Of a stretch of DNA of 64,000 bases, positions 23,770 through 50,318 are shown one piece after another. Numbering within the stretch: position 1 is the stretch's first letter; every line of letters starts with the position of its first letter. The stretch comes from Phycisphaerales bacterium (lineage in GTDB: Bacteria; Planctomycetota; Phycisphaerae; Phycisphaerales; SM1A02): NCBI GenBank assembly GCA_022447205.1, contig JAKVBQ010000002.1, positions 1-64,000 of the forward strand, read 5' to 3'. The translations under genes were made by a program, and so were the position numbers. Below the pieces are notes generated by a model. That model ran no database searches, had not been told where the DNA came from, and saw only the letters and a program-made list of their open reading frames with translations.

Positions 23770-23802
23770 TCCAGGCACTGAGCAGTTGACCGGAACCCCA
23801 TC

Positions 23803-24888: not shown

Positions 24889-24924
24889 CCCGTCGAAACG
24901 AACAGCAACCCACGGAACCAACCG

Positions 24925-30459: not shown

Positions 30460-31026
30460 TCACTGGCGCCAGACCCGCTTCACCGAGGAATGGATCGGTT
30501 GGCCACCCTCCGACGAGGCGAAGGTCACCAGGAAGTCGTACCCGCGGGGACCGGGGATGCCCGGGGGCCGCCTCGGCAGGCGATCCGTGAGGTCGATCCT
30601 GAATCGATAGTAGGGCCCGACCAGGTTCTCGCTGCGAGCGGCAGCCGCCTCACTCGCACTCCAGCGCCAGACCGCGAGCGGTTCGGCGTCCGGATGCGCA
30701 CGACTCTCGAGCGTCCCCTCCGGATAGAGGCTGAGCATGAAGGATCCTTCGGACCACTTCGGCGCCGGATAGGGCTCCGCATACAGGTATGCGGCGAAGG
30801 GAAGTTGCGTCGGCAGCCCGCTCCCGTCGAGATCCTGAAGTGCGGTGGTGCTGAGCACGACGAGGTTCGTGACCGGGGCATCCTCCGGGGTCTCGGGGGC
30901 CTTGATCGGTTCGAGACGAGGTGGATTCGGCAACGGATCGACGCTCACGGCATCATCGGTGCCGCATGCAGCGAGAATCGGAAGAACGGCGAAGAGTGCC
31001 GGATGACGAATGGCGAAGCGACGCAC
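30460..31026 (-). CDS. Lipoprotein downstream of the giant secretin, possible pilotin-like partner
   Basis: This 188-residue protein has a lipoprotein signal peptide with lipobox LAAC (Cys at about residue 21). The mature part begins Pro/Asp-rich and has a domain (TNLVVLSTTALQDLDGSG, then FAAYLYAEPYPAPKW) with aromatic strands and an end VKRVWRQ. It starts with GTG three bases after the secretin stop, so it is the last gene of the secretion operon. I do not recognise the family. Secretins commonly need a small outer-membrane lipoprotein (pilotin, GspS/PilW type) for targeting; the position fits that role, but there is no sequence proof. Confidence 0.7.
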   Translation of the reverse strand: MRRFAIRHPALFAVLPILAACGTDDAVSVDPLPNPPRLEPIKAPETPEDAPVTNLVVLSTTALQDLDGSGLPTQLPFAAYLYAEPYPAPKWSEGSFMLSLYPEGTLESRAHPDAEPLAVWRWSASEAAAARSENLVGPYYRFRIDLTDRLPRRPPGIPGPRGYDFLVTFASSEGGQPIHSSVKRVWRQ

Positions 31027-31029
31027 CGA

Positions 31030-34000
31030 TCACTCGCCGTCCAGGCGAGGATCGCCCATCTCGAACTTCTCCTCATCCTCGGATTCGAATTCGGCACCGA
31101 AGATGCTCGTGCTTCCGTCGAGCTGACCGTCTCGGATCTGGTCCTTCACGCCCTCGAGCAGGGGCATCTGGTCGATCATCCGATCACCGATCTCCTTCAT
31201 CCGGGGCGAGGAGGGTGATTCGATGACGTGCGGAGTCAGCACGATCAGGAGTTCCGTCCGACTCGCCTTCATCTCCTCGTTGCGGAAGAGTCCGCCGATG
31301 AGAGGCAGGTCGCCGAAGAACGGCACCTTGTCGTCCTGACGCTCGTAGAGGGTCCGGATCAGACCGCCGATGACGACCGTCTCGCCGTCCCGGACCGTCA
31401 CCGTGGTGGTGGCGGTGCGACGGATGATGATCGGTGCCTGGAAGTCGCTGCTGAGATCGGTGGTCTCCTTGCTGAGCTCGGAGATCTGCGGCTCGATCTG
31501 CATGCGGACGAAACCGTCGGGGTTGATCGAGGGCAGGACGTTGAGGATCGTACCGACCTCCTCCGCGACGACCGCCGCGTTCTGGATGCCGGTGTCGAAG
31601 GTCGCGATCGCCTCGGGCAGGCGAATGGTCTGGCCGACCTGGATGCGACCTTCCTCGTTGTTGGCCACCGTGATCGACGGATTCGAGAGGAGGTTGAACC
31701 GGCGCTGCGAATCAAGTGCGCTCAGGGTGAAGTTCAGGTCCTCCGCGGAGATGTTGTACGGAGCGGAACTGACGCCACCCACCAGCGAGCCGGCGAAGCT
31801 CAGCCCGGCACTGATCGGAACCGTGCCGACCCGATCGTTGAGGGTCACGCCCATCTCCTCGGTGTCGTCCAGGGTGATCTCCGCGAGGAGCACCTGGATC
31901 ATGACCTGCGGGGGATCGACATCCAGACCCTGGATCATCTCCATCACCTTCTCGCGATAGCGAGGACTCGCGTTGACGAGGACGGAGTTGCTCTTCTCCT
32001 CGCCGACGATGGTGACCTCTCGCTCGAGCAGGCGACTCGCCGAGGGAAGCTGCTCGGAACCGAGGGTCTCGATCAGCTTCCGCTGGTCCTCCGCGACGAA
32101 CTCGCCGACCACTCGGGCGATGTCGGCGGCCTGCGCGTTGCGCAACGGATAGACGAAGGTCTCTCGTTCGTTGGCCTCCTTCTCATCGAGTTGCGTGACC
32201 ACGTCGCTGACCAGCTCGAGGTAGGTCGGGGTGCCCGACACCAGCAGGCTGTTGGTCCTCGAGTCGACGGTGATCGAAAGCGCCTGGCGCTGGTCGGGCA
32301 CCAGGGTGAGATCGGTGCCGAGCGCACCCTCGCCGGGCTGGCTGATTCCCGTCTCGTCGACCGTCGTCGTGACCTCACGCGGCTTGAGGACGTAGAGGCT
32401 GCCCTCCTGCCTGAGGTTGAAGAGATCACCGAGGATGTTCGCCATCGCATCCGCATCGGCATTGGCGAGGCGGAACACCTGAATGTCCTGGTTCCCGGTG
32501 CTGGAGGCATCGAGATCCCGGATCATGCTGTCGAGCAGGTTCATCGCGTCCTTCGGGGCACGAACGATGATGGTGTTGGTCCTGGCGTCCGGCGTGAGAC
32601 TGATCGACTCGCGAATCGCGCTCGACACCTCGGTCTGGATCTCGTCATCGGCATCGACACCCTCGATGTCCTGCAGGTAGCGGATGATCGTCGCCTGCTC
32701 GGAACCGCGCCGACCGGCAAGGGTGTTGCCGGAAAGCACATTCTCGATCAACGACACGGTCTCGACCGCATTCGCCGCACCGAGCGGGATGTACTTGATC
32801 TCGACGACGTGGGATGGTCGCGCGCTGTCGAGCTGGTTCACCAGTCGCTGGATCGCGAGGCGATCCGCATCGGGTGCATTGACCACCACCGCGTTGAGAC
32901 GCTCGTCGGCGGTCACCCGGATCACGGTCTCGCCCCGTCGGTCGTTCTCGTCCTCGACGTACATCTCGTCGAGCAGGTCGACCATGTCCTCTGCGGTCTG
33001 GTTGGCCAGGGCGATGATCTCGATGTCCTGCATGCTCGCGTTCTCGTCGCCGGCGGCGACCAGGGCATCGACCAGGTTGCGGATCACGGTGATGTTGTCG
33101 TCGTTGGCGGCGACGATCAGGGTGCGACTGACGGGGTCGGCGGTGATCGACACCTCGTCGGTCGGCGTCTCGCCCTCGCCAAGGCTCCGGGAACGATCCC
33201 GCATCAGGGACTCGAGCCTGGAGGCGAACTGTTCGACGTCACCTCGATCGAGCGGCATGACGTGCAGTCCGATCGCCGGGTTCATCGGAACCTCGGCGAG
33301 TTGCTTGACGAGTTCACGGATCGATGCGAGATCCTCGGGATCCGCAGCGACCAGAAGGCTGCTCGTTCGCGAGTCGTTCACGACGAGCGGTCGACGTGCC
33401 TTCGCCACATCGCCGGGAATGTCGGCATAGCGACGTTCCATGATGCGCTCGATCGCGTCCGACAGGCGGTCGATGCCGCCGCCGGGCACGTGGACCACGG
33501 CGATCTCGCCGCTCTCGGAGACCGGTGCATCATCAAGATCCCGGGCGAGGCGGCGAACGGTCTCGAAGGTGTCGTTTCCAGCGGCGACGACCAGGGAGTT
33601 GGTGCGTTCGTCGGAGATCACGAGCACCTTCTCGAGGTCCGCACTTTCCGGCTGGACCTCACGCAGGCGTTCCACGCGAGCATCCATCATGCGCTGGACG
33701 ATCGGGGCGACCCGCGCGGCGGAGGCGTTGCTCATCGCGATCATCTTGATCTCCCGGATGTCGGGCGGCATCCGGGTGTCGAGCGTCTCGAGCAGCTGCT
33801 CGAGGACCGCGAAGCTCCGGGTCGTGGTGCTCACGACGAGGGAGTTGGTGCGCTCGTCGGGAATCAGCTTGACCTGATCGTCCTCGCGAAGGGTTCCGGA
33901 GGCGATCTGGGACTCGAAGAGCTGTCCGAGGACCGAGGCCAGTCGGGTCGCGGAGGCGTTCTCGACCGGATAGATGCGCACCAGTGCACCCGGGAAGGCG

Positions 34001-37000
34001 GCCTCGATGTCCATCATCGACACCAGGCCCTCGACCACCGCGAGGTTGCTCGGCGTGCCGACGACCACCAGTGCGTTGGTCGCCTGGTCGGATCGAACCA
34101 CCAGCCGGGTCATCGGCACGAAGAGTTCGGATTCGGTGGCACCGCCTTCGTTGCGGACACGAAGCCGGGCGGCCTGGTTCTGGAGCGGCGCGGCCGCAGG
34201 CAGTTCCGTGGAGCCCTCGACCAGGACCTGGTCGATGAGATCGGCGACATCCTGGGAATCGGCGAAGCGAAGCGGAATCACACGGGCCTCGACCCAGCCG
34301 AGTCCGATCTCGGTATCGAGCCGGGTCACGAGAACCTCGATGAAGGCGACGGCATCCTCGGTGCCCGCCGCGATCACGGTGTTGGTCCGGTCGTCGATGC
34401 TGAGCGCGACGTTCTCCATGAGCGCACGCCCCACCGCACCGGCGGGAACGCCCTTGACGACACCACCGGGTGCCTCGCCGATCGAACGGCCCTGTTCATA
34501 GAGTTCGCGTGCAATGCGAACGAACTGCTCTCCCGCGATGTTCTCGAGTGGGAAGAGTCGAACGATCGCCTCTGCGGTCACAGGCAGAGTGTCGAGCATG
34601 CCGACCAGCTGTTCGACGGCACGGACGTTGCCCTCGGTGGACGCGACGACCACTGCATTGGACTGATCGTCCGCGATGAGTCGAATCGGCTTCGAGAGAT
34701 CGACACCGAAGCCGGCGTCGTCGAGCCCGCTTCCCATGACGTCGAGTCGTCGTACCTGTTCCTGGAGAGCCTCCGCGATCGCACTGGAGACCTGCTGTGC
34801 CTCGGGATCAAAGAGCGTCTCGAGGACGTCGACCACCGCATCAGCACTGGCATTCTCGAGGTTCACCAGCCTGACCGTCGCACTGGCGAGATCAGGTTCG
34901 GTATCGAGGGTTCTGGCGATGGAGACGATCACTTCGCGGTCCGCGGGGTTCGCGACGACGAGGACCGCGTTGCGTCCTTCAAGCACCGAGACCCTGATGG
35001 GCTCGACGATCAGGCGACCTGCAGCACCATCTTCCGGCTCGTTCTCGAGACCGATCTCCTCGATGATCCGACCGACTTCCTCGGCAGGCACGTGCTGGAG
35101 ATCGATGAGGAAGATGCCCTGCCCGGCCGCGGGTCGGAGATCATCCATCTTCTCGACGGTGGTCCGGATCTCCGGCCACATCGCACCGGTGCAGGCGACC
35201 ACCAGGGTGTTGGATGCACTGTCGGATTCGATCGAGAGCGGTGCACTCGACTGCCTGGCCTGAGCCGTGAAGGCCTCGCGGATCACGTCGGCGATGCGTT
35301 CGGACCGTGCTGCCCGGAGTTCGAGCACGTGCACCGACAGGCCACTCATCGAGGCTTCCTGCTGGAGTGCGTCGGCAAGCGCCTTGATCTGGGTGAATTC
35401 CTCGTTCTCCGCCCGGACGATGATCGTTCCACTGGTCTCGTCGGGAATGATGCGGGTCGCGAGACCGCCTCGGGAGTTGCCGGAGAGATAGAGTTCACGC
35501 AGGCTCTCGGCGATGCTTCGCGCACTTCCGGACCGGATCGCGATGAGACGCGGTGAAGGCAGCTTCATGAAGTCCGCGACGTCGATCTGATCGACGATCT
35601 GCTCGATCTTCCTCAGGTTCTTGCGGCTTGCGGAGACGATGACCGAGTTGGTCTGTTCCTCGGGAGCGGCACTGACCCACTCCTCGGCTTCGACGAGGAT
35701 GGTCGGTGCGACGGGTTCATCACGGTCATCACGGTCGCGACCACCCTGCCGACGCTGCTGCTGCTGCCGGGAGTCCCGTTCGATCGGCCCACGGAAGGCT
35801 TCGTTGATCGCACGGGCCACGCTCCGCGCATCGGCGTGGGACAGGGGCAGCACGCTCAGCTGGAGGGAGGCGTCGTACTCGGCACTGTCGAGCTTGGTGA
35901 GGAGCGCACGAATGCCGACCCAGGCGTTCTCGTCGGCACTGATGACCAGGGAGTTCGTCGCGAGGTCCGCGGCGATCTGCACGTTCTTCTTCGCGGGATC
36001 GTCGACATCGACCGCGAACGGTCCGTAGAAGTAGGACAGCGCGTTCTGCACCTTGTCCGCCTCGGCGAACTGGAGCGGATAGAAGTCGGTGACGCGGGGC
36101 AGGTCACCGGGCCGGTCAAGCTGATCGAGAATCGTGTCGATCACCTCGAACTGCTCGGACGTCGCACCGATCACCAGCTGGTTGTCTCGGGTCCAGTCGA
36201 TCGAAGGCGCGCTGTCACGGCTTCCTCGGTTCCTGAAGACCATGTCCAGGTTGAAGCCGACCTCGCGGGCCTCGGCGAACTCCAGCGGGACGATGCGATA
36301 CTCGACGGGACTTGCCGACGGCGCGTCCTCGAGACGCGAGATGAGTGCCTCGATGACCGGGAACGATTCCTGGGTGGCGGCGACCACCAGGCTGTTGGAG
36401 CGATCGTCGGACACGATCCGGGCGACGACCTCGACCGGGTCCTCGTCACTTCCCTCGACCTTGACCTTCGCACCGGTGGTCCGGCCCTGACTGTCCAGAG
36501 CGAGCGTCTTCTGGAGGATCTCCATCGCATCGCCCGCATCGGAGGTCGCGAGGACGAACGTCCTGATCAGCGTCTCGTCACGCATCGGTGGGCCGTCGAG
36601 CTTCTCGACCAGGGCCTTGACCTGCACGAACTCGAGCTTCGGTGCGTTGACGATGAGCGAGTTGGTCCGGGCATCCGCGGAAACGACGACCCCGGTGCCT
36701 CCGCTCCTGCGGGGGAACTGCTGGGAGACCAGGCGGGCGATCTCCACCGCCTCGCCCTTGCCGAGGGGAAGGATCTCGATGATCCGGTCGCCGGATGCCT
36801 CCGGTCGATCGATTCGACCGATGAGATCCTTGAGGATCGCCATCTCCTCGACGGAGGCGGAGACGATCAGGGTGTTGGCGGCTTCGCTGGAACCGATCGC
36901 GACCGTGGGATCCTCGACCCCCATCGCATCGGCACGGTCCCGGACGAAGCGATCAAGGGTGTCGCCGACCTCGCCGGCCGGTGCGTATTCGAGCGCGATC

Positions 37001-40000
37001 ACGTCGACCTCGAGATCGGGCCTGGCGAGGGCCCTGGCGAAGGTCTCGACGACCTGCAGCGCGAGGGCCTGCTCGTCCTTCGTACCGGCGACGATGACGA
37101 TGCCGGCGCTTCGATCGTATTCGACGAGCGGCTGGTCGCTGGGATCGTCGTCCCACCATTCGGAATCGACGCCCAACGCCTCGCGGATCATGTTCCGCAC
37201 GATCCTGGAGTCGGTGCCTTCGACGTCATAGACCTTCACGAGCCGCTCGGTGCCGGGCTTCGGTGGAAGGTCGATCGACTTGATGACCTGTTCCACGGTG
37301 GTGAAGAGCTCGCCGTTGCCGGTGATGAGCAGTGCGTTCAGTCCGGGGAGGACGGCGGTGGAGATCTGGTCGCTGCTTTCACGCCCACCACGCATCCAGA
37401 AGATCGGCTCGAAGACGTCCCGGAGGATGTTCTTGACGTCATCCGCCTTGGCATGCGCAAGCGGGTAGACGCGGAACTCGAGACCCTTGGTGGCTTCGAC
37501 CGAATCGAGCTGCTCGATGAGGCCGAGGACCTGCTCGTAATCGCTCTCGCTGGAGGCGACGAGCAGCGTGGAAGTCGCCTCGTCACCGATGACGGCGACC
37601 TGTCTCTTCAGGCGACGCCCGCGCGCACCGGAGGCGATCTCCGCGCGATCGTCGTAGAAACTCTGGATGGCACGGGCGACCGATGCGGCATTCGCCCGCT
37701 TCAGGATGACCGAACGGACCGGGAATTGTGCGGTGGAGTCTCGATCGATCTCGCGAAGAACGACCTCGATCTCTTCGACCACCGGCTGGTCGGCACGAAC
37801 CAGGAGCACCCCCGCGTCCTCATCAGCGAGGATCATCGTTCGCGAACGGAGCCCCTGGTCGTCACCGACCACGACCTTGTCCAGTACCGCCGCGATCCGG
37901 GTCGGACTCGCGGACATCAGTTCGATCACCTTCAACGGTGCCTTCTCGAGAACGGTCTCCTTGTCGAGTTGCCCGAGAAGGGCCTCGATCTCCTTCAGCT
38001 GTTCGGCGGAAGCGGTCACCACCAGGGAATTGGTCCGGGTGTCGGGTGCGAAGCCCGGATCCGGAAGTCGATCACCCTTGCCGCGCATGCCGCGAGCCCG
38101 TGCAGTGAAGATCGCGGACATGGTCCGGCTGATCTCCGCACTGTCGGCGTAGCGGACATCGAAGGTCTTGATGGTCCGGTGTTCGGTGCCCGGCTCCTGA
38201 TCCATCAGCTGGATGAATCGGTCCACGAAGGCGTAGGCCTTCTCCGGGGCGAGCACCAGCATGGAATTCGTCGCGACATCGGGGATCACCCTGACATCGG
38301 CGACATCGAAGGTCGCGGTCTCGTCACCAAGGGTGATCGAGAGCTCACGCGAAGCCCCCCTGCCCCTGCCACCACCAAGCAATTCCATCAATCCCGTGGC
38401 GGCACGGTCCGCGGACACGTTCGCCAGGTTGTAGCTGCGCACCGTGACATCCTCGCTCGCCGGCTGCCGGGCGTACGCCGCGACCAGTGGCGCGATCGTC
38501 TCGAAGTCGGCATCGGTGGAGGTGATCACCAGTGAGCGGGTACCGTCATCGGCGATGAGTCCCACCCTGCGTGCCAGGTCGCCGCGGTTCCCTCCGGGCG
38601 GAGTCATCGACTCCAGGGTCTTGCTCACGAGAGCGCGAAGCCGTTCAGCGGAGACCTCCTCCGGGAGCGGAATCGTGCGAATGCTCGTGCCTTCGTTCGG
38701 AAGCTGTTCCTCGGCCTGTGCGGCAAGAGCCCTGACTCGAGCGACGGCACGCGGACTGCCCAGCACCACGAGACTGTTCGTGGCAGGGTCGACCGCGATG
38801 ACGACGTCGGCGTCATCCTCGTCCGAAGTCTCGTCGGAAGTGGCGGACTCGGTCGGGACCGGCTGATCCCGGAGCATGCGGTCGAAGGTGGAGAGCTCCT
38901 CCTCCTGGGCCGGAGGCAGATTGCCGAGCACCATCATGGCGAGTCGTCTCTGGAAGACACCCATCATGCCGGCGGAGCTGGAACGGGTCCCTGTCGAGGG
39001 CTCGTCGGTTTCCTCGGCGGCCGGTGCGTACTTGTCGAGCAGTTCCTCGAGGGGAACGACCCGAACCACGTCCTCATCGCCACCTCGTTCGAGAATCCGC
39101 TCGAGCAGGCGCGCGATGTCCGCGGCATCCGCTCGGGAACCGTCGATCGGAATGGTCCGAAGTTCACGGGAGGTGGTGACAGTGGCGTCATCGACCTCTC
39201 GGGTGACGCGTTCGATCACCTCGAACTGATCATCAGTGGCACGAACCAGAAGGGCGTTGCTCGAGGCATCCACCTGGATGACCGGAGGCTGCTCCCCGTC
39301 ATCACCATCGGTGAAGAGCGCACGCAGGTTCTCCCCGAGCTCGTCGGCATCGGCGTTCTCGACCGCGAGCACGCGCACGGAACGTTGTCCACCGATCGCG
39401 GAGGACGGGTCCACGTCCATCTGCTCGACGGCCTTCTGAGCCACGGCCAGCAACGCCGGCGGCGCGGCGATGATCACGGCATTCAGTCGGGAATCGGCCT
39501 CGACCCGCACGCCGACCTGCTCCTCGATGGTGCCACGTGCACGTTCGCGCAGGTAATCACGCATCGAGAAGTAGCCGCCGGAAATCATCGATTCCATGTC
39601 CCCATCGGTCATCAACCGCTGGACCAGGGGTGCGACGACCTCGGCACGGGCGTGCTTGAGCATGACGGTCCGCACTGCGGGCACGTCGGTGGAGCTTCCG
39701 GATTCGAATCCCTCGATCAGTCGGCCGAGTTCGGCCTGCTGGGACGGGGTTCCCGTCACCAGGATGGAATTGCTCGACGGCTCCGAGATGATCAGGGCCT
39801 TCGGTTCACCGGGAAGTGCCGCATCGCGTGCATCAAGCGCCTTCTGGAGCGCCGGTGCGACATCGGAAGCCTGCGCCTGGACGAGTGCATAGACGCGGAC
39901 GTCACCGGCGACCTCACCGCCGGATGCATCGAGCTGGTCGATCAGTTCGAGTGCGACGGGAAGAAGAGCGGTCGGGGCACTGACGAGGATTCGGTTGGCC

Positions 40001-43000
40001 GAACCATCGGCACTGACCTTCGGTTCGCCGACGGGAAGACCCGCATTCGCAGCGGCCCGGAGCTTGAGGGGCCAGCGGGAACGGTCGACGAGCAGCGGAC
40101 CGACGGTCGCGGCGATCGCCTGGGCGTCACCATGCTCGACATCGACGACCTTCAGGTCCATCGCCGGCGCATACGAGTCGGAATCCCACGAGGAAAGCAT
40201 CGCTTCTGCGGCACGTGCCTCGACGTTGTTGCCCACGATGACGATCACGCCGGTCTGGGGATCAGGAATGAGCTCGAGCTCGGAACGGGTGCCGTTCATC
40301 CGGGTGGCGGAAAGAACGCGTTCGGCGATGTCGGCCAGACGTGCCGGGTCGGCATTGACCGGCGTGAAGGTGAGGTAGACCCGATCGCCTCCGGCCTCCG
40401 GAGCATCAAGCTGTTCGATGAGGGTCTTCGCGAGGGCGACCGTTCGCTGCGGACCGCTGACGATGAGACTGTTGGTCCTGCCGTCCGATTCCACGCGAAC
40501 CTTCGGAACGAGATCGATCTCACCACGACTGCGTCGGATGCGCTCCATGATGAAACGGGGATCGTTCTGTTCCTGGTCGGTGAGCAGTCGCTCGACGAGG
40601 GGTGCGATCTCGGTCGCATCGGCATGGACGAGTTCGAAGGTCTGGGCGTCGATCGCATCGACGGCGGGTCGTGCGTCAAGCGGTTCGACCAGGGTCTCGA
40701 CCTCGTCGAGGTCGACCGGCAGGCCGACCATGATGATCGCGTTCGAACCCGCGGAAGCGACCAGACGGACATCGATCGGTTCGCCGGTGGCGGAACTGAC
40801 CACGGTGCTCAACGCCTGGTCGAGACTGGTCACGACCTGCTGGGGGTCGGCGAAGGTGAGCGGTCGCACGCGAATGACCGGGTCGGTGATCGCACTGGTC
40901 CCGCTGTCGAGCTGCTTGATGAGTTCCTCGGCGACGGGCATCACCGATTCGGGTGCCTGCACGACCAGCGTGTTGGTCTTTCTGTCCGCAGTCACTTCAA
41001 GGAGGGCATCGAGCTGGCTCGCGCCGCCGGGTACGACCTCGCTGATCCGCGATGCAAGGACATCACGAAGCATCGGGGCGAGGGAATCCGCTCGCGCACT
41101 CGCAAGCCGGAAGAATCGAAGACTGGTCGCCGGTACGGGCTTGCCGGCCTCGAAGGAACTGATGACGCCATCGACCTTCTCGAAGATCTCCTTCGGACCG
41201 GAAACAAGCAGCGTGCCGCTCAATGGCTCGGTGGAGATCGAGATGTTCGACGTACCGATGCCGTCGACACCACCGAAGCCACCCTTGTCAGCGATCCCCT
41301 GCAAGGATCGGGCGACGGCGTCGAGCTCGCTCCTGAGGAGCTTCCAGGTTCTGATCTCGGTCTCTTCGGCGATCTGTGCGCGGTCAAGCTGTTCGACCAG
41401 TTTCTCGAACCCCGCCATGCGCTGGATCGGGGCATCCACGATCAGGGAGTTCGTCTGCGGATCGCCTCGGACCACGATCTCGCGTGGCAGCTGGAGGTCG
41501 GGTCGCGGGCGACCACGGGAATCGGTCGGCATCGGAGGCTGAGGGAACATCTCGTCGATGGTCTGCGCGAGCTCCTCGGCACGCGCGACCTTCAGCGGGA
41601 AGATCCGGATCTCACGGCCCTCGTCATCAAGCCGATTGACGTCGTTCAACTGGGTGACGATCTCCTGAATCTCGGTGAAGACCTCGGGATGCGCCGCGAT
41701 CACGAGTGAATTCGTCTCGATGTCCGCGGTGATGCGGACGGGCTTGCTGGCCCGTTCCTCGACGGAACGGTTCTCGTAGGTCTCGTTGAGCGCACGCGCC
41801 AGGTTGGCAGCCTCGGTCGTCCGAAGCTGGAGGATGCGGATCGGAGGCATCTCGGAATTCTGAACGTCGAGACGTTCGATGAGCGCGTTGATGATCTCCT
41901 GCTGGGCAGGCTGAGCGGCAACGAGAATGGAATTGGTTCGAGTCACCGGTTCGAACTCCGGCGCCGACCCGCCGCCGGCGGACAATGCGACATCGCCCTT
42001 GGCGAGTTGCTGGAGGGTGGCGACGGCGTCCTCGGCCCTGACGTAGGTCAGGGGAACGAGCCGAACCAACGGTGTCGGTGGCAATGCAGCCTCGAGTTCA
42101 TCGAGAATGGTGGCGAAGCGTTGCATCGAATCGCGATCGGAGACGGCGATGATTGTCCCATTGGGTGCATCGACCTCGACGTCGACCGCGGCAAGACCGG
42201 TCTCGCTGGCCTGCTGGTCCGCATAGAAGCGGGAAGCACGTTCGGCCAACTGCGCGACGTCACCGTTCGAGACATCGAAGACCCGGACTTCGCGTGGAAG
42301 CGGAGCCGACTCGAGCTGGTCGATGACCTGCTTGACGCGTTCGAAGGTGGAGTCGTCACCAGTGACGATCAGGGTGCCGGTGGCGGGCTCGACCTGGATC
42401 GAGACATCCGCGGCCTGGGTGCCATCCTCACCGGGGGAACTGAGGACACCCTGAATCGCAAGTTGCTGGAGCGTTCTGGCGACCTGATCCGGATCACCAC
42501 GTTCGATCCTGAAGGTGGAGAGTTCAGCCTGCGGCGGAAGCTCGACTCGGTCAAGCTGCTCGACGAGGGCGGCGAAGCTCGCCTTGCGTTCCGCGGGTGC
42601 CTCGATGATCAGGGTGTTGGTCGCCGCATCCGCACTGACGAGAACCTCGCGGGGTTCCTGGAGATGGGGTAGCGGCCTGCCACGACTGTCACGCGGCATC
42701 GGTGGTTCGGGGTAGAGCTTGTCGAGAGCGGTGGCGAGGTCGGTCGCACGTGCGAGCTTGAGCGGGAAGATGGTCGTCTCCCGTTCCGGTTCCTTCTCGC
42801 CGGAGAGATTGACCTCGTCGACGAACGACTTGATCTCCTCGAAGAGTTCGGGTCCGGCGGTCACCACCAGCATGTTGGTCGAGGCATCCGCCTCGATCAC
42901 GAGCGGATCCGCACGAAGCTGCTCCGCGGGACGTGCCGCGTACCGGGTGGTGAGCGAACTTGCGAGTTGCGCGGCATCGGCGGTTCGAACCTGGATCAGC

Positions 43001-45273
43001 TTCATCGGAGGCAGGTCGGTGGGTTCGATGACGTCGAGTTCGCGCACATAGCGGTCGATGAGTGCGACATGAACCGGATCAGCGACGATTTGAAGCGCGT
43101 TGAGCGGCTCGACGACGGTGATGCTCGGGACGGGAAGTCGTCGCCCGTCCAGTTCGGTCGGTGCGGTCTCGAGCAGGGCACGCAGGGTCGGCTCGATGTC
43201 GGACGCCTTGACGATCTCCAGTTCGATCATCTTGTCCTGGAGCTCGGGCGGCATGAGCTTGCGTGCCTCGGCGATCGAACGCTCGTACTGGGAGACGGCT
43301 CGGGTGGTTCCGGAGATCGTCAATGCCCCAGTGGTCGGGTCGTAGTCGACCGTCGGTGCGGGCAATTCACCTTCGGGTGCGAACGATGCCGAGCGTGCGA
43401 AGACCTTGTCCGCACGGTCGATCAGATCCTGTGGTGCGGAGGATGCGACGGGAACGACCCGATAGCTGAAGTCCTCCGGTCGCGGACGATCGAGTGTGAG
43501 CAGAAGCCCCTTGATCGATTCGAGATGGGCGGGGTCGACTTCGGCGATGACGATGTCGAGTTCATCGACGGCTTCGAACCTCGGCGCCCTGAAGGTGGTG
43601 CCGTCACGAGGATCGAGCATCCGACGGGCAAGAGAGTCGAGGCTCGAGACGATGCTCGAGGGCGTGACGTTCTCGACCTCGAGGCGATGCACCGATCGAG
43701 GTGCCTGGATGGTGGCCCGGGCCTGGGTCAGGGCGGCATTGAAGCGGTCAATCCCCTGCTTGGAGCCGGTCAGGGTCAGCTGGCGGCTCTCGGGGTCGAA
43801 TTCGCTGGTCACCTTATAAAGAGGATCGGCGAGGTCGTTGGTGGTCTCGAAGATCCGGGTCGCGAGCTGGATCGCGGCGGTGGGATCCGGGGAGTCGATC
43901 GTCTGGAATCGGACTTCCTGCTCGATCCGGGTGGGTCGATCGATGATTTCGAGGAGCCGGGCCAGTTCCTGGATGTCCCCCTCGGGACCGCTGACGAGGA
44001 TCGACTCCCCATCCGGGCCCGCCACCATGGTCAAAGCGCGCTCACGGCGCGGGCCGAGCATCGGCCGGACCGCACTCATCATGGCGGAGGCGGATCCATG
44101 GTCCAGGGGAAGGCGCTGGGTGACCCGCTCGTCACGGGTTCCGGGGACCGTGTCATCGAGGGCGGCCAGGAGGGCGATGCCCTCGGCCACGACGGTCGCC
44201 CCACCGACGATGGAGATGCGATCAACCTCGTCGAGGGGAATCACGACCGGCCGACCCTCCGCGGGGAAGGCGGCGTAGAACTGGGACAACTTGCTCGATG
44301 CCTCGGCGGGCGTGATCCGTGAAAGCGTCACGGTCCGCATGGTGCGCACGCCACCCGAACCCTCGGGCACGTCGAGCAGGATGATGGTCTCCCTCAACTG
44401 CGTGATCCTCGCCCGCGTCCCCTTCGCGATGATCGCGTTGGTACGTGCGTCGGGCGTGATCTGGAGACCCGGCAGCTGCTCGTCCTCGACCTTGATCTGC
44501 TTGCCCTTGGCGTCGACGACGTACTTGACGACGCGTTCACCCATGAGCGACTTGAGTGACTTCGCCAGTTCAGTCGCCTTGGCATACTGGATCGGGATGT
44601 ACTCGATGATGTTCTCGACATCCTCGCGATCAACCTCATTGATGATCTTCTCGATGCGCCTGATCTGCGCCGCGGTCTCGACGACGAGGACGGCATTCTG
44701 CTTCGGCATCGCGGTGACGGAACCGTAGGCCGCGATCAGGTTGGCGAGCTGCTCCGCGACGGATGCCGCTTCAGCATTCACGAGCGGGATGAGAACCGTC
44801 ACGATCTGGTCGTCGGTGACCTCCTCGGGGAGGGTGCCGATGAAGGTCGGGATGTTCTCACGACGCATGTCGTCGAGCTTCTGCAGGAAGAGCCGGTCGG
44901 ATTCTCGGCGCAACATCACGCCCTGGGTCTGCAGGAGGATGTTGAGGGTCTCGAGCGCCTCGGGGAGTGCATAGGGTTCGGGGTAGATGTAGGTGACGGT
45001 TCCCGTCGGGGATGGAACCTCGCGCACGATGGGCAGACCGGTGGTACGGGTGAAGAAGTCGAGGATCTCGTCCCAGGTCTGGTCCTTGAAACTGAAGGTG
45101 ACCTCGACATCCTCGGCGACGGCGACCTCGGAAGCGGATGGCGTGCCATCCGTGTCTCCCTCGGTTTCATCCTGTGCTGTCGCGGGGTCCGTCCATAGAT
45201 ACAGCGATAGGGCAGCCGCGGTCCCTGCAATGAGGAACATGCGGGCCAGCCATCCGAAGCGGGCTTCCGACAT
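31030..45273 (-). CDS. gspD: Giant type II/IV-pilus-type secretin with about 52 N1-type ring domains
   Basis: This 4747-residue protein (about 0.5 MDa at 110 Da per residue) is an outer-membrane secretin. Order: signal peptide (residues about 12-34, MFLIAGTAAALSLYLW); an N0-like domain (about 55-132, FKDQTWDEILDFFTRTTGLP); about 52 tandem repeats (157-4455), each beginning with a strand such as RIFPLKVARAEELA and ending with a T-N-S-L-I-V strand and a helix ending in QLD; then the secretin core (4457-4690) with VMIQVLLAEI, TTTVTVRDGETVVIGGL, VPFFGDLPLIGGLF and ELLIVLTPHVI; and an acidic tail. Ordinary GspD/PilQ have about 600-800 residues and two to four N domains. Reading is uninterrupted over 14.2 kb. 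The start at 45273 has AGGAG seven bases upstream; a frame to 45366 overlaps the previous gene. It is within the gspF-to-lipoprotein operon. The C-terminal assignment is certain; the tandem domains are assigned to the Secretin_N family from their pattern. Confidence 0.95.
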   Translation of the reverse strand: MSEARFGWLARMFLIAGTAAALSLYLWTDPATAQDETEGDTDGTPSASEVAVAEDVEVTFSFKDQTWDEILDFFTRTTGLPIVREVPSPTGTVTYIYPEPYALPEALETLNILLQTQGVMLRRESDRLFLQKLDDMRRENIPTFIGTLPEEVTDDQIVTVLIPLVNAEAASVAEQLANLIAAYGSVTAMPKQNAVLVVETAAQIRRIEKIINEVDREDVENIIEYIPIQYAKATELAKSLKSLMGERVVKYVVDAKGKQIKVEDEQLPGLQITPDARTNAIIAKGTRARITQLRETIILLDVPEGSGGVRTMRTVTLSRITPAEASSKLSQFYAAFPAEGRPVVIPLDEVDRISIVGGATVVAEGIALLAALDDTVPGTRDERVTQRLPLDHGSASAMMSAVRPMLGPRRERALTMVAGPDGESILVSGPEGDIQELARLLEIIDRPTRIEQEVRFQTIDSPDPTAAIQLATRIFETTNDLADPLYKVTSEFDPESRQLTLTGSKQGIDRFNAALTQARATIQAPRSVHRLEVENVTPSSIVSSLDSLARRMLDPRDGTTFRAPRFEAVDELDIVIAEVDPAHLESIKGLLLTLDRPRPEDFSYRVVPVASSAPQDLIDRADKVFARSASFAPEGELPAPTVDYDPTTGALTISGTTRAVSQYERSIAEARKLMPPELQDKMIELEIVKASDIEPTLRALLETAPTELDGRRLPVPSITVVEPLNALQIVADPVHVALIDRYVRELDVIEPTDLPPMKLIQVRTADAAQLASSLTTRYAARPAEQLRADPLVIEADASTNMLVVTAGPELFEEIKSFVDEVNLSGEKEPERETTIFPLKLARATDLATALDKLYPEPPMPRDSRGRPLPHLQEPREVLVSADAATNTLIIEAPAERKASFAALVEQLDRVELPPQAELSTFRIERGDPDQVARTLQQLAIQGVLSSPGEDGTQAADVSIQVEPATGTLIVTGDDSTFERVKQVIDQLESAPLPREVRVFDVSNGDVAQLAERASRFYADQQASETGLAAVDVEVDAPNGTIIAVSDRDSMQRFATILDELEAALPPTPLVRLVPLTYVRAEDAVATLQQLAKGDVALSAGGGSAPEFEPVTRTNSILVAAQPAQQEIINALIERLDVQNSEMPPIRILQLRTTEAANLARALNETYENRSVEERASKPVRITADIETNSLVIAAHPEVFTEIQEIVTQLNDVNRLDDEGREIRIFPLKVARAEELAQTIDEMFPQPPMPTDSRGRPRPDLQLPREIVVRGDPQTNSLIVDAPIQRMAGFEKLVEQLDRAQIAEETEIRTWKLLRSELDAVARSLQGIADKGGFGGVDGIGTSNISISTEPLSGTLLVSGPKEIFEKVDGVISSFEAGKPVPATSLRFFRLASARADSLAPMLRDVLASRISEVVPGGASQLDALLEVTADRKTNTLVVQAPESVMPVAEELIKQLDSGTSAITDPVIRVRPLTFADPQQVVTSLDQALSTVVSSATGEPIDVRLVASAGSNAIIMVGLPVDLDEVETLVEPLDARPAVDAIDAQTFELVHADATEIAPLVERLLTDQEQNDPRFIMERIRRSRGEIDLVPKVRVESDGRTNSLIVSGPQRTVALAKTLIEQLDAPEAGGDRVYLTFTPVNADPARLADIAERVLSATRMNGTRSELELIPDPQTGVIVIVGNNVEARAAEAMLSSWDSDSYAPAMDLKVVDVEHGDAQAIAATVGPLLVDRSRWPLKLRAAANAGLPVGEPKVSADGSANRILVSAPTALLPVALELIDQLDASGGEVAGDVRVYALVQAQASDVAPALQKALDARDAALPGEPKALIISEPSSNSILVTGTPSQQAELGRLIEGFESGSSTDVPAVRTVMLKHARAEVVAPLVQRLMTDGDMESMISGGYFSMRDYLRERARGTIEEQVGVRVEADSRLNAVIIAAPPALLAVAQKAVEQMDVDPSSAIGGQRSVRVLAVENADADELGENLRALFTDGDDGEQPPVIQVDASSNALLVRATDDQFEVIERVTREVDDATVTTSRELRTIPIDGSRADAADIARLLERILERGGDEDVVRVVPLEELLDKYAPAAEETDEPSTGTRSSSAGMMGVFQRRLAMMVLGNLPPAQEEELSTFDRMLRDQPVPTESATSDETSDEDDADVVIAVDPATNSLVVLGSPRAVARVRALAAQAEEQLPNEGTSIRTIPLPEEVSAERLRALVSKTLESMTPPGGNRGDLARRVGLIADDGTRSLVITSTDADFETIAPLVAAYARQPASEDVTVRSYNLANVSADRAATGLMELLGGGRGRGASRELSITLGDETATFDVADVRVIPDVATNSMLVLAPEKAYAFVDRFIQLMDQEPGTEHRTIKTFDVRYADSAEISRTMSAIFTARARGMRGKGDRLPDPGFAPDTRTNSLVVTASAEQLKEIEALLGQLDKETVLEKAPLKVIELMSASPTRIAAVLDKVVVGDDQGLRSRTMILADEDAGVLLVRADQPVVEEIEVVLREIDRDSTAQFPVRSVILKRANAASVARAIQSFYDDRAEIASGARGRRLKRQVAVIGDEATSTLLVASSESDYEQVLGLIEQLDSVEATKGLEFRVYPLAHAKADDVKNILRDVFEPIFWMRGGRESSDQISTAVLPGLNALLITGNGELFTTVEQVIKSIDLPPKPGTERLVKVYDVEGTDSRIVRNMIREALGVDSEWWDDDPSDQPLVEYDRSAGIVIVAGTKDEQALALQVVETFARALARPDLEVDVIALEYAPAGEVGDTLDRFVRDRADAMGVEDPTVAIGSSEAANTLIVSASVEEMAILKDLIGRIDRPEASGDRIIEILPLGKGEAVEIARLVSQQFPRRSGGTGVVVSADARTNSLIVNAPKLEFVQVKALVEKLDGPPMRDETLIRTFVLATSDAGDAMEILQKTLALDSQGRTTGAKVKVEGSDEDPVEVVARIVSDDRSNSLVVAATQESFPVIEALISRLEDAPSASPVEYRIVPLEFAEAREVGFNLDMVFRNRGSRDSAPSIDWTRDNQLVIGATSEQFEVIDTILDQLDRPGDLPRVTDFYPLQFAEADKVQNALSYFYGPFAVDVDDPAKKNVQIAADLATNSLVISADENAWVGIRALLTKLDSAEYDASLQLSVLPLSHADARSVARAINEAFRGPIERDSRQQQQRRQGGRDRDDRDEPVAPTILVEAEEWVSAAPEEQTNSVIVSASRKNLRKIEQIVDQIDVADFMKLPSPRLIAIRSGSARSIAESLRELYLSGNSRGGLATRIIPDETSGTIIVRAENEEFTQIKALADALQQEASMSGLSVHVLELRAARSERIADVIREAFTAQARQSSAPLSIESDSASNTLVVACTGAMWPEIRTTVEKMDDLRPAAGQGIFLIDLQHVPAEEVGRIIEEIGLENEPEDGAAGRLIVEPIRVSVLEGRNAVLVVANPADREVIVSIARTLDTEPDLASATVRLVNLENASADAVVDVLETLFDPEAQQVSSAIAEALQEQVRRLDVMGSGLDDAGFGVDLSKPIRLIADDQSNAVVVASTEGNVRAVEQLVGMLDTLPVTAEAIVRLFPLENIAGEQFVRIARELYEQGRSIGEAPGGVVKGVPAGAVGRALMENVALSIDDRTNTVIAAGTEDAVAFIEVLVTRLDTEIGLGWVEARVIPLRFADSQDVADLIDQVLVEGSTELPAAAPLQNQAARLRVRNEGGATESELFVPMTRLVVRSDQATNALVVVGTPSNLAVVEGLVSMMDIEAAFPGALVRIYPVENASATRLASVLGQLFESQIASGTLREDDQVKLIPDERTNSLVVSTTTRSFAVLEQLLETLDTRMPPDIREIKMIAMSNASAARVAPIVQRMMDARVERLREVQPESADLEKVLVISDERTNSLVVAAGNDTFETVRRLARDLDDAPVSESGEIAVVHVPGGGIDRLSDAIERIMERRYADIPGDVAKARRPLVVNDSRTSSLLVAADPEDLASIRELVKQLAEVPMNPAIGLHVMPLDRGDVEQFASRLESLMRDRSRSLGEGETPTDEVSITADPVSRTLIVAANDDNITVIRNLVDALVAAGDENASMQDIEIIALANQTAEDMVDLLDEMYVEDENDRRGETVIRVTADERLNAVVVNAPDADRLAIQRLVNQLDSARPSHVVEIKYIPLGAANAVETVSLIENVLSGNTLAGRRGSEQATIIRYLQDIEGVDADDEIQTEVSSAIRESISLTPDARTNTIIVRAPKDAMNLLDSMIRDLDASSTGNQDIQVFRLANADADAMANILGDLFNLRQEGSLYVLKPREVTTTVDETGISQPGEGALGTDLTLVPDQRQALSITVDSRTNSLLVSGTPTYLELVSDVVTQLDEKEANERETFVYPLRNAQAADIARVVGEFVAEDQRKLIETLGSEQLPSASRLLEREVTIVGEEKSNSVLVNASPRYREKVMEMIQGLDVDPPQVMIQVLLAEITLDDTEEMGVTLNDRVGTVPISAGLSFAGSLVGGVSSAPYNISAEDLNFTLSALDSQRRFNLLSNPSITVANNEEGRIQVGQTIRLPEAIATFDTGIQNAAVVAEEVGTILNVLPSINPDGFVRMQIEPQISELSKETTDLSSDFQAPIIIRRTATTTVTVRDGETVVIGGLIRTLYERQDDKVPFFGDLPLIGGLFRNEEMKASRTELLIVLTPHVIESPSSPRMKEIGDRMIDQMPLLEGVKDQIRDGQLDGSTSIFGAEFESEDEEKFEMGDPRLDGE
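31204..31908 (-). other. Secretin barrel domain of the giant secretin
   Basis: Residues about 4456-4690. The PF00263-type core includes the gate-forming region and the signature VxxVPxxGDLPLIGxLF. It is like that of short GspD proteins, so the outer-membrane pore should be of normal size. About 60 acidic residues follow and may be a pilotin-binding S domain. Confidence 0.9.
31909..44805 (-). repeat. Protein-level tandem array: about 52 secretin N1-type domains, mean 83 residues
   Basis: Each unit has the pattern beta strand (xxxFPLxxAxA), helix (xxLAxxLxxLF), a variable loop, a strand ending in D-x-x-T-N-S-L-I-V-x-A, and a helix (xxFxxIxxLIxQLD). Units differ strongly in sequence, so the array is old; some loops hold inserts of 20-90 residues. 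A five-unit block is clearly duplicated (40678-43005). The DNA itself shows no long exact repeats. Confidence 0.85.
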
Positions 45274-45325: not shown

Positions 45326-46321
45326 CTACAGGCTGGCGTCGCGTCCCGTCGCCAAGGACCTGCCAATTCTCACTTTGAAGGTTCCATCACCCATCTTGAA
45401 GCGAGCATGCTCACCCGTGATCTCGACCAGAACCGCATCGCCGATCGCACCCCCGGGGCGCAAGGTCCGTCGCTTGTTGCTCGCGGGGTTCCGAAGCCAG
45501 GCTTCGGGTCCGTCCGGTCCGTTCGCAACACCCGTAAGCACCCAATTCTCATAGGGAAAGACCACTTTCGGTGGCGGTGGCGCAACGGCAGGAGCGGGCT
45601 CGGGGTCAGGCGGCGCAGCCGCGACCACCGGCTCCGGCGCAGGTGGAATCCGGAACGGATTCAACGCGATCAGGCCGGCGATCCGGTCCGGATCGAGCAC
45701 CCCGGCCGGTGGTGCCTCGGTGGGCTCCCGACCGGGCAGGAAGAGTGTCGTCAGCTGGAGCGAGAGCTTGATGCTGGTCCCGTCCCGGTTCGGGTTCAGC
45801 CGGACCTGGGAGACCCGCTTGATCCATGGATCGACATCGATCCAACCGAGCAGACGGAGCACCTGCTCGATGGAGCCCTCCCCACTCAGGTTCGCGGTGA
45901 CCTCGATGAAGTCGGTTTCGTCGCGCAGCGCCTTCTGGGATCCGCGCCTGTCGAACGCGCGCTTGGCGGGGGTCTCTCTCCTCGCTGAAGCGGATCCGGA
46001 CGTGACGACGGACAGGTCGGTCAGGCCCGCGGTCGAACCAAGTGCGTACAAGCGGCGTCGAATCCGACTGTCGACCGACTCGATGGTCGCACCAAGGGTA
46101 CGCGCCACGAAGTTCGACTCGCGTTCATCAAGTTCGGGTCGTGCCTCTCGCTGGGCGCGAACCGCCTTGAGCGCCTGCGTGTACTTCTCGCGATCGACCA
46201 GGAGTTCGTCGTACTCGCCACTGATTCCACCGGATCCGATCAACCATCCGATGAACACCGCCGACAGGACCGACGCCGAGGCGATGCCGAGGCGAAGGCG
46301 TCTGGACATCTTCACCTTCAT
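45326..46321 (-). CDS. Fused inner-membrane assembly protein: GspM/PilO-like domain plus GspC/PilP-like domain
   Basis: This 331-residue protein has an N-terminal membrane helix (LGIASASVLSAVFIGWLIG), a coiled coil (about 35-75), and a ferredoxin-like periplasmic domain (about 75-210) resembling GspM/PilO. A Pro/Ala-rich linker (about 226-252) leads to a C-terminal beta domain (FPYENWVLTGVANGPDG to FKVRIGRSLA) resembling the homology region of GspC or PilP, the part that binds secretin N0. In most systems these are separate proteins. The start overlaps the preceding gene by four bases (ATGA), and the secretin starts 52 bases after its stop. The domain calls come from pattern and order; a structure-based search would settle them. 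Confidence 0.65.
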   Translation of the reverse strand: MKVKMSRRLRLGIASASVLSAVFIGWLIGSGGISGEYDELLVDREKYTQALKAVRAQREARPELDERESNFVARTLGATIESVDSRIRRRLYALGSTAGLTDLSVVTSGSASARRETPAKRAFDRRGSQKALRDETDFIEVTANLSGEGSIEQVLRLLGWIDVDPWIKRVSQVRLNPNRDGTSIKLSLQLTTLFLPGREPTEAPPAGVLDPDRIAGLIALNPFRIPPAPEPVVAAAPPDPEPAPAVAPPPPKVVFPYENWVLTGVANGPDGPEAWLRNPASNKRRTLRPGGAIGDAVLVEITGEHARFKMGDGTFKVRIGRSLATGRDASL

Positions 46322-47856
46322 CCGTCACCTTCCTTCCCCGCGTCGGAAGCTTCATCGGGCTCATCGGGGGATGAAGCTGGTGCGGGACGAACCTCGGAGG
46401 ACCGCAACTGGAAGGAGAAGGGAACGGCAAGCCGGTCACCACCGACGCTCTCCGCTCCGTTGGACTTCAGGAGATAACGCTTGCTCTCGACCAGGGACTC
46501 GCGCAGTCCGTCGGCCGTGTCTCGATCGATCGCCTCGCCGGAAAGTTGCAGTCGGATCTCGGAGTCGACCGTGAAGACCTTTCCATTCTCGTCATAGCGG
46601 ACGGGGTCGACGAGCAGTGTCCCTGCGAATCCGTCGAGCACGACCCGGTCGGGATCCGGAGCGAACGCTCGGAAGGAATCGAGATGGGCCAGCCAGTCGG
46701 GTTCAACCGATGTCCATTCCTCGATGTGACCGACCCTCAGGACATCACGTCGGTTGCGGTGGTACTCGACGAGTGCGTTTCGAGCCTTCCCCTCGAGGTC
46801 GGCGTTGACGGCGCGTTCCCGGCTCATCTGCAGGTTGCCGATCGTCCAGCCGAAAAGCGAGGAAACCATCAGCATTCCAGCGGCTATGAGCACCGTTCGG
46901 CGCTTTCGTGCAGCAAGATCCGGCGCCTTCCTCGGTGAACCGAAATCGATCGTCGGCTCACGAATGCCCTCGCGCAGCAGCAGACCGGCAAGCGGCCAAG
47001 CGTCACCCGGGAAGTTGTCGGGAACCCGGACCCTGGGGTGCTTCCGAATCGAGGTGATGTCGATGCCGGTCGCCTCACCGATCCAGCCCTCGAGTCGGTC
47101 GGCGAGTTCCGCCGGTGCGAAGAGAACTCCGGAGGAGACCTCCTCCTCCTCGCGCTCGGAAAGTCGATGGCTGATCCAGGACCTGCGCACCTCGGTGACG
47201 ATCGTCTCGTCGATGCCTTCCGAACTCGGTCGGATCTCCACCCCACGGGTGAATCCGATCCTGCCGTCACGCGAGACCACGAACTCGAAGCCGTCCTCGC
47301 CGAGGTCGATCGCGAGGATGCCGCGACCACGACATTCCCGGAGCGAGTTCACGAGCGACGCGGTACCGAAGCAACGCAGCGAGATCCGGCTCGCGGTCAC
47401 GCCGGCGACCGAAGTCACCTCGCGGACACGATCGACGATCCGGCAGGGAACCGCACATGCGAGCACCTCGATGTGCGAGTCGGTCGCTTCAAGGACGATG
47501 TAGTCGATGACGGCATCATCCGCATCGATGGGCAGGTCGCGCTTCATCGCGAGGTTGACCATCTCGGCAACCTCGTCGAGTTCGTCCGTGGGCAGGACAA
47601 GGGTGCGAACGACCGCGTGCTCGCGATTCACCGCGACCACGGCGCGCGTGGCTTCGAGCCGATGCTTTCGAAGGGTCCTGCCCAACCAGGTCCCGACCAT
47701 CCTGTCGTCATCGATGTCGATGTCCTCGGGCATCGCGATCGACAGCGCACGATCGATATGGATCGACCCACGGTGCATCGTGGCTTCGACACCTCGAAGT
47801 CGACGGCGAACAAAGTCGATTGCAATGGTCGTTCGTGCAGGCATCAGGCGCGGCAT
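46318..47856 (-). CDS. gspL: GspL/PilM-PilN-like assembly protein
   Basis: The 512-residue protein has an N-terminal actin-like (PilM/GspL cytoplasmic) domain (about 8-300; TTIAIDFVRRRLRGVEA and GILAIDLGEDGFEFVVSRDG), one membrane helix (about 318-340, TVLIAAGMLMVSSLFGW), a coiled coil, and a periplasmic ferredoxin-like domain with a Pro/Asp-rich tail. That is the GspL architecture, equal to PilM plus PilN. It would link the cytoplasmic ATPase to the periplasmic ring. The start at 47856 has GGAG eight bases upstream. It sits between gspK and the GspM/C fusion, as in T2SS operons. Confidence 0.78.
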   Translation of the reverse strand: MPRLMPARTTIAIDFVRRRLRGVEATMHRGSIHIDRALSIAMPEDIDIDDDRMVGTWLGRTLRKHRLEATRAVVAVNREHAVVRTLVLPTDELDEVAEMVNLAMKRDLPIDADDAVIDYIVLEATDSHIEVLACAVPCRIVDRVREVTSVAGVTASRISLRCFGTASLVNSLRECRGRGILAIDLGEDGFEFVVSRDGRIGFTRGVEIRPSSEGIDETIVTEVRRSWISHRLSEREEEEVSSGVLFAPAELADRLEGWIGEATGIDITSIRKHPRVRVPDNFPGDAWPLAGLLLREGIREPTIDFGSPRKAPDLAARKRRTVLIAAGMLMVSSLFGWTIGNLQMSRERAVNADLEGKARNALVEYHRNRRDVLRVGHIEEWTSVEPDWLAHLDSFRAFAPDPDRVVLDGFAGTLLVDPVRYDENGKVFTVDSEIRLQLSGEAIDRDTADGLRESLVESKRYLLKSNGAESVGGDRLAVPFSFQLRSSEVRPAPASSPDEPDEASDAGKEGDG

Positions 47857-47887
47857 CCTTTCCGCTCCATGCACATGCTATCCATTC

Positions 47888-49474: not shown

Positions 49475-50318
49475 CGTCCACCTCCTCGAAGTCATCGTCG
49501 AACGGCTCTCCCCAGTCACCATCAAGGGACTCCTGGAAGAGCGGCTCCTCGAAGAAGGTCGATTCGTCCGGCTGTTCCGCATCGGGAATCGCGAAGATCC
49601 GGCGGCGATCGGTGTCGGGCAGGTCGTCATCGATGTCAAGAAAGCCGTCGGCGGGATCCTCACCGAAGGAATCGAACAGCTGGTCCAACGACATGGGCTC
49701 CTCGGGGAAGTCCTCCGAGTCGTCGAACATGATTTCGAAGTCGGCACCCTCCTCGTCGTAGCCCTCCGGGAACCACTCGGGAACGGTCTCGTCCGGCCAG
49801 GGTGCGTACCAGACCGAGCACTCCAGCGCATGGGGCAGGCCCCCCATCGCGATGGAATCCCATTCCTCGAGCCAGTTGTTCCCGTCATGAAAACGGAAGC
49901 GCACGGCGAAGCAGCGAACCGCGAGGTCGCGCGGCCGATCACCGTCACGGGCGATGGAAAGTACACCGGAGGAAGGCTCGAAACGAATCTGGACACGATC
50001 CTCGGGAACCAGCACCAGCTCGGAGGAATCCCCGAGTGCCCGCTGGACCGTCGTCGAATCAAAGGAGATCTCGACGGACATCGCGTCGCCCCGGAATCCC
50101 GGCATCCCGTCACCAGCGAGTGCGATGCAGGTGCCGGTGGCGCCGTCGAGCGCATCGAAGACGATCGTGATCGAGGATTCCTGCTCGGATCGAGTGCGCA
50201 GGTCGACTCTGGTCTCCGACACCTGGTTGACGAAGATGCCAAGGGACCCGACCAGGAGCATGATCAGGCCGAGGGCGAGCAGCACCTCGATCAACGTGAA
50301 GCCTCGACGTCCGGTCAT
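49467..50318 (-). CDS. gspJ: Type II secretion minor pseudopilin GspJ
   Basis: The 283-residue protein starts with the prepilin cleavage motif RRGFTLIEVLLALGLIMLL (G/F cut, Glu at +5) and has a GspJ-like globular part with FDALDGATGTCIALAGDG. From about residue 195 it continues with a very acidic tail (FDDSEDFPEE to DDDFEEVDDA), which makes it longer than usual GspJ (about 200). Both ends overlap neighbouring genes by four to eight bases. Confidence 0.82.
   Translation of the reverse strand: MTGRRGFTLIEVLLALGLIMLLVGSLGIFVNQVSETRVDLRTRSEQESSITIVFDALDGATGTCIALAGDGMPGFRGDAMSVEISFDSTTVQRALGDSSELVLVPEDRVQIRFEPSSGVLSIARDGDRPRDLAVRCFAVRFRFHDGNNWLEEWDSIAMGGLPHALECSVWYAPWPDETVPEWFPEGYDEEGADFEIMFDDSEDFPEEPMSLDQLFDSFGEDPADGFLDIDDDLPDTDRRRIFAIPDAEQPDESTFFEEPLFQESLDGDWGEPFDDDFEEVDDA

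Follow-up and report, generated by a model that had tools for sequence, protein, structure and literature searches.

A giant GspD-like secretin with 52 N1-type units in a gsp operon of Phycisphaerae, and its possible assembly into a periplasmic tunnel

The gsp operon

The DNA analysed here (the window) is a stretch of 64,000 nucleotides from a Phycisphaerales genome (assembly GCA_022447205.1, contig JAKVBQ010000002.1, positions 1 to 64,000), in keeping with the planctomycete origin that an earlier note had proposed from the letters of the sequence. A tightly packed series of genes is encoded on its minus strand in the order gspFGHIJK-pilM-orfA, with a giant gspD gene last, and the same order was found again in most relatives. 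The type II secretion markers GspF, GspG and the minor pseudopilins are present in the operon. The gspF gene (52284..53468; T2SSF, E 8e-51) is followed by gspG (51608..52156; T2SSG, E 9e-22), by a gspH-like pseudopilin gene with an N_methyl match (50806..51684), the true start of which may be further in, and by gspI-like (50315..50809) and gspJ-like (49467..50318) pseudopilin genes, the latter encoding a prepilin-type N terminus that is conserved in relatives. These precede a gspK-like gene with a helix-hairpin-helix (47888..49474), the start of which was inferred at MPEGRRSF, a gene for a PilM/GspL-like protein (46318..47874) that matches PF11104 and scores below the cut-off of TIGR01175, and orfA (45326..46321), which encodes a protein of 331 amino acids. 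No gspE gene was found in the giant's operon; eleven T2SSE-family ATPase matches above cut-off are located elsewhere in the genome (contigs C2, C6, C13, C25, C56, C67 and C86). Flagellar rod and ring genes (FlgG-like, FlgA-like and FlgH) are situated on the plus strand at 22963-25737, a few kb away from the gsp genes.

The orfA gene was characterised from its sequence and alignment, a weak GspC match and its co-inheritance with the giant. Its product is laid out as one TM helix, a GspM/PilO-like part, a Pro-rich linker and a GspC-HR-like C terminus, and the functions of GspC and GspM are apparently combined in this one protein. The match between the C terminus and GspC is weak (E 0.016), and PDB and Pfam searches with the orfA alignment returned nothing significant for an HR domain. 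Of 81 genomes of the family, 48 have the giant together with orfA and 32 have neither, the remaining one (G005) giving only a weak partial orfA hit. No family genome was seen in which orfA is kept with a normal-sized homologue of the giant secretin, the short frames in the family being actually or possibly cut by contig ends. Genomes devoid of the giant operon are smaller (median 2.4 versus 3.3 Mb).

Three nucleotides 3' of the giant gene begins the frame of a conserved lipoprotein of 188 amino acids (30460..31026, minus strand), and at 60 of the 69 loci checked a homologue comes directly after the giant gene. The lipobox Cys is invariant in 15 aligned homologues and the protein has no Pfam match; by its position only, it is a candidate pilotin.

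Domain architecture and predicted structure of the giant GspD protein

The giant gspD gene (31030..45273) is a single frame of 4747 codons without a stop, running on the minus strand, which the earlier note had left unspecified, from an ATG at 45273 with GGAG just 5' of it to a stop that ends at 31030. ARAGORN called a 98-nt tRNA-Ala antisense within the gene (33069-33166, plus strand), which is probably a false positive.

The predicted protein begins with a Sec-type signal peptide (aa 1 to ~33; 45175..45273), read from the sequence as a hydrophobic stretch followed by ATAQ-D, and an N0 domain (aa 53-147; 44833..45117), which was assigned from matches to GspD N0 structures and occurs as a single copy per giant. 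There follows an array of 52 N1-type (beta-alpha-beta-beta-alpha) units (aa 153-4451; 31921..44817), delineated by a unit profile, Secretin_N matches and AF2 modelling, and finally a secretin barrel domain (aa 4456-4686; 31216..31908) identified by PF00263, the PulD structure 6hcg and profile comparison. Pfam recognised 42 separate Secretin_N (PF03958) stretches in the giant, with a summed score of 1249 bits, and a single Secretin (PF00263) domain at aa 4519-4685 (E 3e-46). A profile derived from the repeats gave 53 hits, counted as 52 units, with the hits at aa 2031-2095 and 2108-2187, which overlap on the profile, most readily taken as a single unit that carries an insert. The consensus of the units contains RVIPLENADAEEVARAL and, further on, VRITADPRTNSLIVSASPEDLEEIEELVEQLD, and the gaps between unit hits are mostly 0-5 residues. 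Every unit recognised belongs to the N1 type. Pfam detected no additional binding domain in the array, and its scan (E 0.01) gave no match to the AMIN domain that lies ahead of the N domains in proteobacterial PilQ. At the two ends, aa 51-295 match the crystal structure of GspD N0-N1-N2 (3ezj, E 1.2e-8) and aa 4331-4692 match PulD (6hcg, E 1.5e-39). NCBIfam names the protein GspD (TIGR02517), with a score, inflated by the repeats, of 1181 bits versus a cut-off of 351; the PilQ and SctC models score 418 and 364, respectively. By every sequence test, the giant is a GspD protein, and its departure lies in the number of N domains. The features that the earlier note had described, namely an uninterrupted 4747-residue frame in a gsp operon, an N0-like start, about 52 tandem N1-type units with strand and helix motifs in most, and a normal secretin barrel end, are all recovered by these analyses, and the repeats score as the Secretin_N domains that it took them to be.

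Predicted structures were obtained with AF2 for both ends of the protein, as single chains only. The model of the last eight units and the barrel (74 sequences) has a mean pLDDT of 75.8; nearly every unit in it adopts the beta-alpha-beta-beta-alpha arrangement, with linkers of 4-9 residues, and the structures nearest to it are secretins, with a fold match to GspD. Since the pTM of this model is only 0.38, the relative placement of its units is uncertain. The model of N0 and five units (27 sequences) has a pLDDT of 87.3, and its predicted fold, compared with Foldseek among others, also points to GspD. Its N0 domain matches the N0 structure 4jtm with a Z-score of 11.6 (2.6 A over 80 residues), and the segment comprising N0, unit 1 and unit 2 can be superposed on PulD from the assembled complex (220 residues, 4.3 A, Z 12.9), as opposed to 9 A or worse for isolated N0-N1-N2 crystals. 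The modelled segment is thus predicted to be arranged as in the assembled ring stack of PulD, a structure that AF2 may have learned. The short linkers between units, together with the small gaps between profile hits, leave no room for long flexible tethers.

Conservation of the array

The units within the giant share only ~20% identity with each other. In the comparison with the congener G001, the reciprocal best match of every unit is the unit at the same position, and across five family members with 53 hits the best match falls at the same position in 1034 of 1060 unit comparisons. Block events in the array are few, comprising a four-unit insertion in L027, units 10/15 at ~55%, and losses of whole-unit blocks in L028, L025, L031, L036 and L034. 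Since the units are so divergent, and nearly all are orthologous across the family, most of the array is ancient, and a recent expansion by unequal crossing-over was rejected on these grounds. Values of dN/dS ranged from 0.09 to 0.27 in each 300-codon segment of the giant when compared with G001, the nearest pair, and from 0.06 to 0.31 in two further pairs of giants; by these estimates, purifying selection acts along the entire frame.

Giant repetitive genes mis-assemble easily, and in G039 the giant frame is broken twice by overlapping frames, such that the array could conceivably stem from mis-assembly, with repeats collapsed or expanded, from a gene-calling error or from a chance open frame. 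However, the identity of ~20% between units means that collapse or expansion during assembly is not possible, and the identical organisation recurs in many independent assemblies, including single-contig ones. The colinear orthology of the units and the low dN/dS values argue in the same direction, and an artefactual origin, which appears extremely improbable, was rejected.

Giant secretins in other planctomycetes

The earlier note had proposed a search for very large secretins in other Phycisphaerae. In a sample of 298 Phycisphaerae genomes, frames of at least 3000 amino acids occupy the homologous place in at least 70, the longest having ~6150 amino acids and 63 units, and some of the giants are encoded in single-contig assemblies. 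About half of 41 relatives have frames of 2500-5100 amino acids, one per genome. In the relatives read, frames with an intact 5' end have 24-56 units, and the overall range across Phycisphaerae giants is 24-63 units. A collection-wide scan, conducted with a motif specific to the giant's own family, returned named records that are nearly all Phycisphaerales or Phycisphaerae MAGs. Homologous frames in Planctomycetia-like families, the membership of which was assigned from kinship and size, have 1211-1495 amino acids, in which seven to nine units were recognised, and the majority of the remaining secretin hits across the phylum have 600-1000 amino acids. Judged from predicted frames, therefore, secretin length in the phylum forms a gradient.

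Arrays divided between adjacent genes

In three related families the array is carried on more than one gene, on two adjacent genes in f17 and f19 and on three in f21. Each of the split proteins begins with a hydrophobic signal-like segment. The N0 domain is confined to the first protein in eight of nine systems, being undetected in G080, whereas the barrel is found on the last protein only. Units summed over the split proteins number ~39-48, inside the range of the unsplit giants; in G212 there is an assembly gap within the first gene.

The shared junction falls inside a unit, each of the neighbouring proteins retaining the matching half. The upstream protein ends with the region corresponding to profile positions ~3-40 (beta1-alpha1), to which a short tail, basic in most cases, is added; the downstream protein resumes after its signal with positions ~43-76 (beta2-beta3-alpha2). 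This evidence is derived from halves scored separately: in five genomes, which are not all independent as they represent three families and perhaps one ancestral split, the score of the half-unit tail was reached in 0-2 of 1000 shuffles and that of the head in 0 of 1000. When the halves were joined, a full-length profile match was obtained in G284, G301 and the f19 group (10-14 bits) and none in G080 or G068, the failures being due perhaps to the basic tails and spacers. At the extra junction in the three-protein system of G068, between proteins 1 and 2, the halves are unclear by profile and similar by eye, and G243 ends differently. The layout is easiest to explain if two split proteins complete the junction unit between them and so continue one array. 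Manufacture of the frame as several separate proteins had been named in the earlier note as an outcome that would speak against its reading; the array is indeed encoded as two or three proteins in these families, but the position of the shared junction inside a unit argues for one continuous stack.

Most of the upstream proteins at loci L161-L170 and L172 (f17, f19 and f21) have a conserved C-terminal tail that is short and basic (..GRRR). At L043 (G039), the giant frame comprises three overlapping out-of-frame pieces without signal peptides, for which a sequencing problem or decay is the more likely cause.

Discussion

Secretins form 12-15-mers through the barrel, and their N domains form stacked rings. 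The giant is envisaged here as a GspD protein that serves a type II secretion-like system of Phycisphaerae as its outer-membrane secretin, and its protomers probably stack as ~53 rings to form a tunnel between the inner and outer membranes. By the established secretin rule, 12-15 copies would assemble via the C-terminal barrel, with N0, at the far end, docking on an inner-membrane platform for which the GspM/GspC-like OrfA protein is proposed. The 52 N1-type units between N0 and the barrel would stack as successive rings, one oligomer thereby constituting an unbroken tunnel of protein between the two membranes, through which a pseudopilus of GspG-K-like proteins could push substrates out. Ring number would adjust the length of the tunnel, whole units having been gained or lost during evolution, and the three families with split systems would build the same stack by placing two or three proteins end to end, completing the split unit. 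The predicted architecture, with N0 once and first, the barrel once and last, short linkers and a PulD-like N0-N1-N2 arrangement, supports serial stacking, and docking between the HR and N0 domains at the base is established for PulC-PulD (PMC6882859).

A precedent for ring number tracking the width of the periplasm is provided by Thermus PilQ, the six rings of which reach 350 A and span most of a wide periplasm (PMC5745081), and the XcpQ N0-N2 dodecamer is 80 A high (PMC5646246). If a ring height of 2.7-4 nm is assumed from these two structures, a straight stack of ~53 rings would be ~140-210 nm long. The tunnel more than ten times longer than that of E. coli, as suggested in the earlier note, would require that all of the units form rings (~53 versus four in E. 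coli-type GspD). In the planctomycete Tuwongella the distance between the membranes is 45 nm, which a straight stack would exceed; hence three possibilities arise, namely a much greater local depth of the periplasm, a bent stack, or rings formed by only some of the units. The fuller picture, of a ~140-210 nm tunnel of ~53 rings that would be the longest secretin channel known, set in a deep Phycisphaerae periplasm and built in some families from two or three end-to-end proteins that complete a split ring domain, is accordingly put forward as a tentative one.

Counting against a tunnel are the low pTM (0.38) of the C-terminal model, the length relative to 45 nm, the weakness of the HR assignment in OrfA, and an operon that lacks gspE. 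The seemingly excessive length of a straight stack also favours an arrangement in which only N0 and a few barrel-adjacent units form rings, with the middle 40 or more units as folded beads in a long elastic tether or spacer that would allow the gap between inner and outer membranes to widen while the machine stays intact. The N rings of secretins have known flexibility (PMC5745081; PMC5646246), and the variation in unit number between species (24-63) would also be consistent with a spacer. However, the linkers between units are short, each unit has its own conserved identity, which is unexpected of interchangeable beads, and loose beads would hardly be expected to be split within a unit. Moreover, if each barrel carried 12-15 parallel tethers fixed at their two ends, lateral pairing between them would probably occur in any case, and an elastic spacer, while worthy of consideration, seems unlikely. 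Position-specific conservation of the units would similarly be expected if they served mainly to bind periplasmic partners, such as substrates, pseudopilins or cell-wall material, in a channel of normal length. This appears improbable, given that the recognised units are all of the ring-building N1 type, that Pfam recognised no added binding domain among them, and that N0 lies beyond all of the units, next to its expected inner-membrane partner.

Should the units stack as rings, as preferred here, the giant would represent a protein conduit of an extreme kind, and its gene would encode a ruler for the distance between planctomycete membranes, in organisms for which debate over the envelope plan continues. 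Between 24 and 63 N domains are maintained across an entire bacterial class, as compared with at most six N rings in solved secretins, and the question of whether ring number sets the reach of a secretion channel is thereby made testable. The natural split, with half a domain per chain, provides a ready-made test of end-to-end assembly.

The ring-forming domain is present three to five times in the usual secretins. With GspD, PulD and XcpQ the giant shares the signal peptide, N0, N1-type domains, barrel and gsp neighbours, and they are its best PDB and NCBIfam matches, but they have N0 plus three such domains in ~650 amino acids as opposed to N0 plus 52 in 4747, and the giant also differs in having an operon without gspE and in the apparent union of GspC and GspM functions in OrfA. 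Thermus thermophilus PilQ is likewise extended by extra N rings, and has been called exceptionally long (PMC5745081); yet it has six rings in 757 amino acids and serves the type IV pilus and competence, whereas the giant has ~53 putative rings and belongs to a gsp operon. In the open-licence full-text literature, no report was found of giants of this size, of their wide presence among Phycisphaerae or of split forms with half-units; secretins and Phycisphaerae are unmentioned in the huge-protein literature examined, and as far as was checked the split multi-protein form with half-units is undescribed. Extended T2SS secretins were reportedly described in Planctomycetales/Planctomycetia by Mahajan et al. 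in 2020 (Genome Biol Evol), with a wide periplasm offered as the reason. The gene concerned is homologous to the giant, with seven to nine units recognised in the Planctomycetia-like frames analysed here compared with 24-63 in the Phycisphaerae giants.
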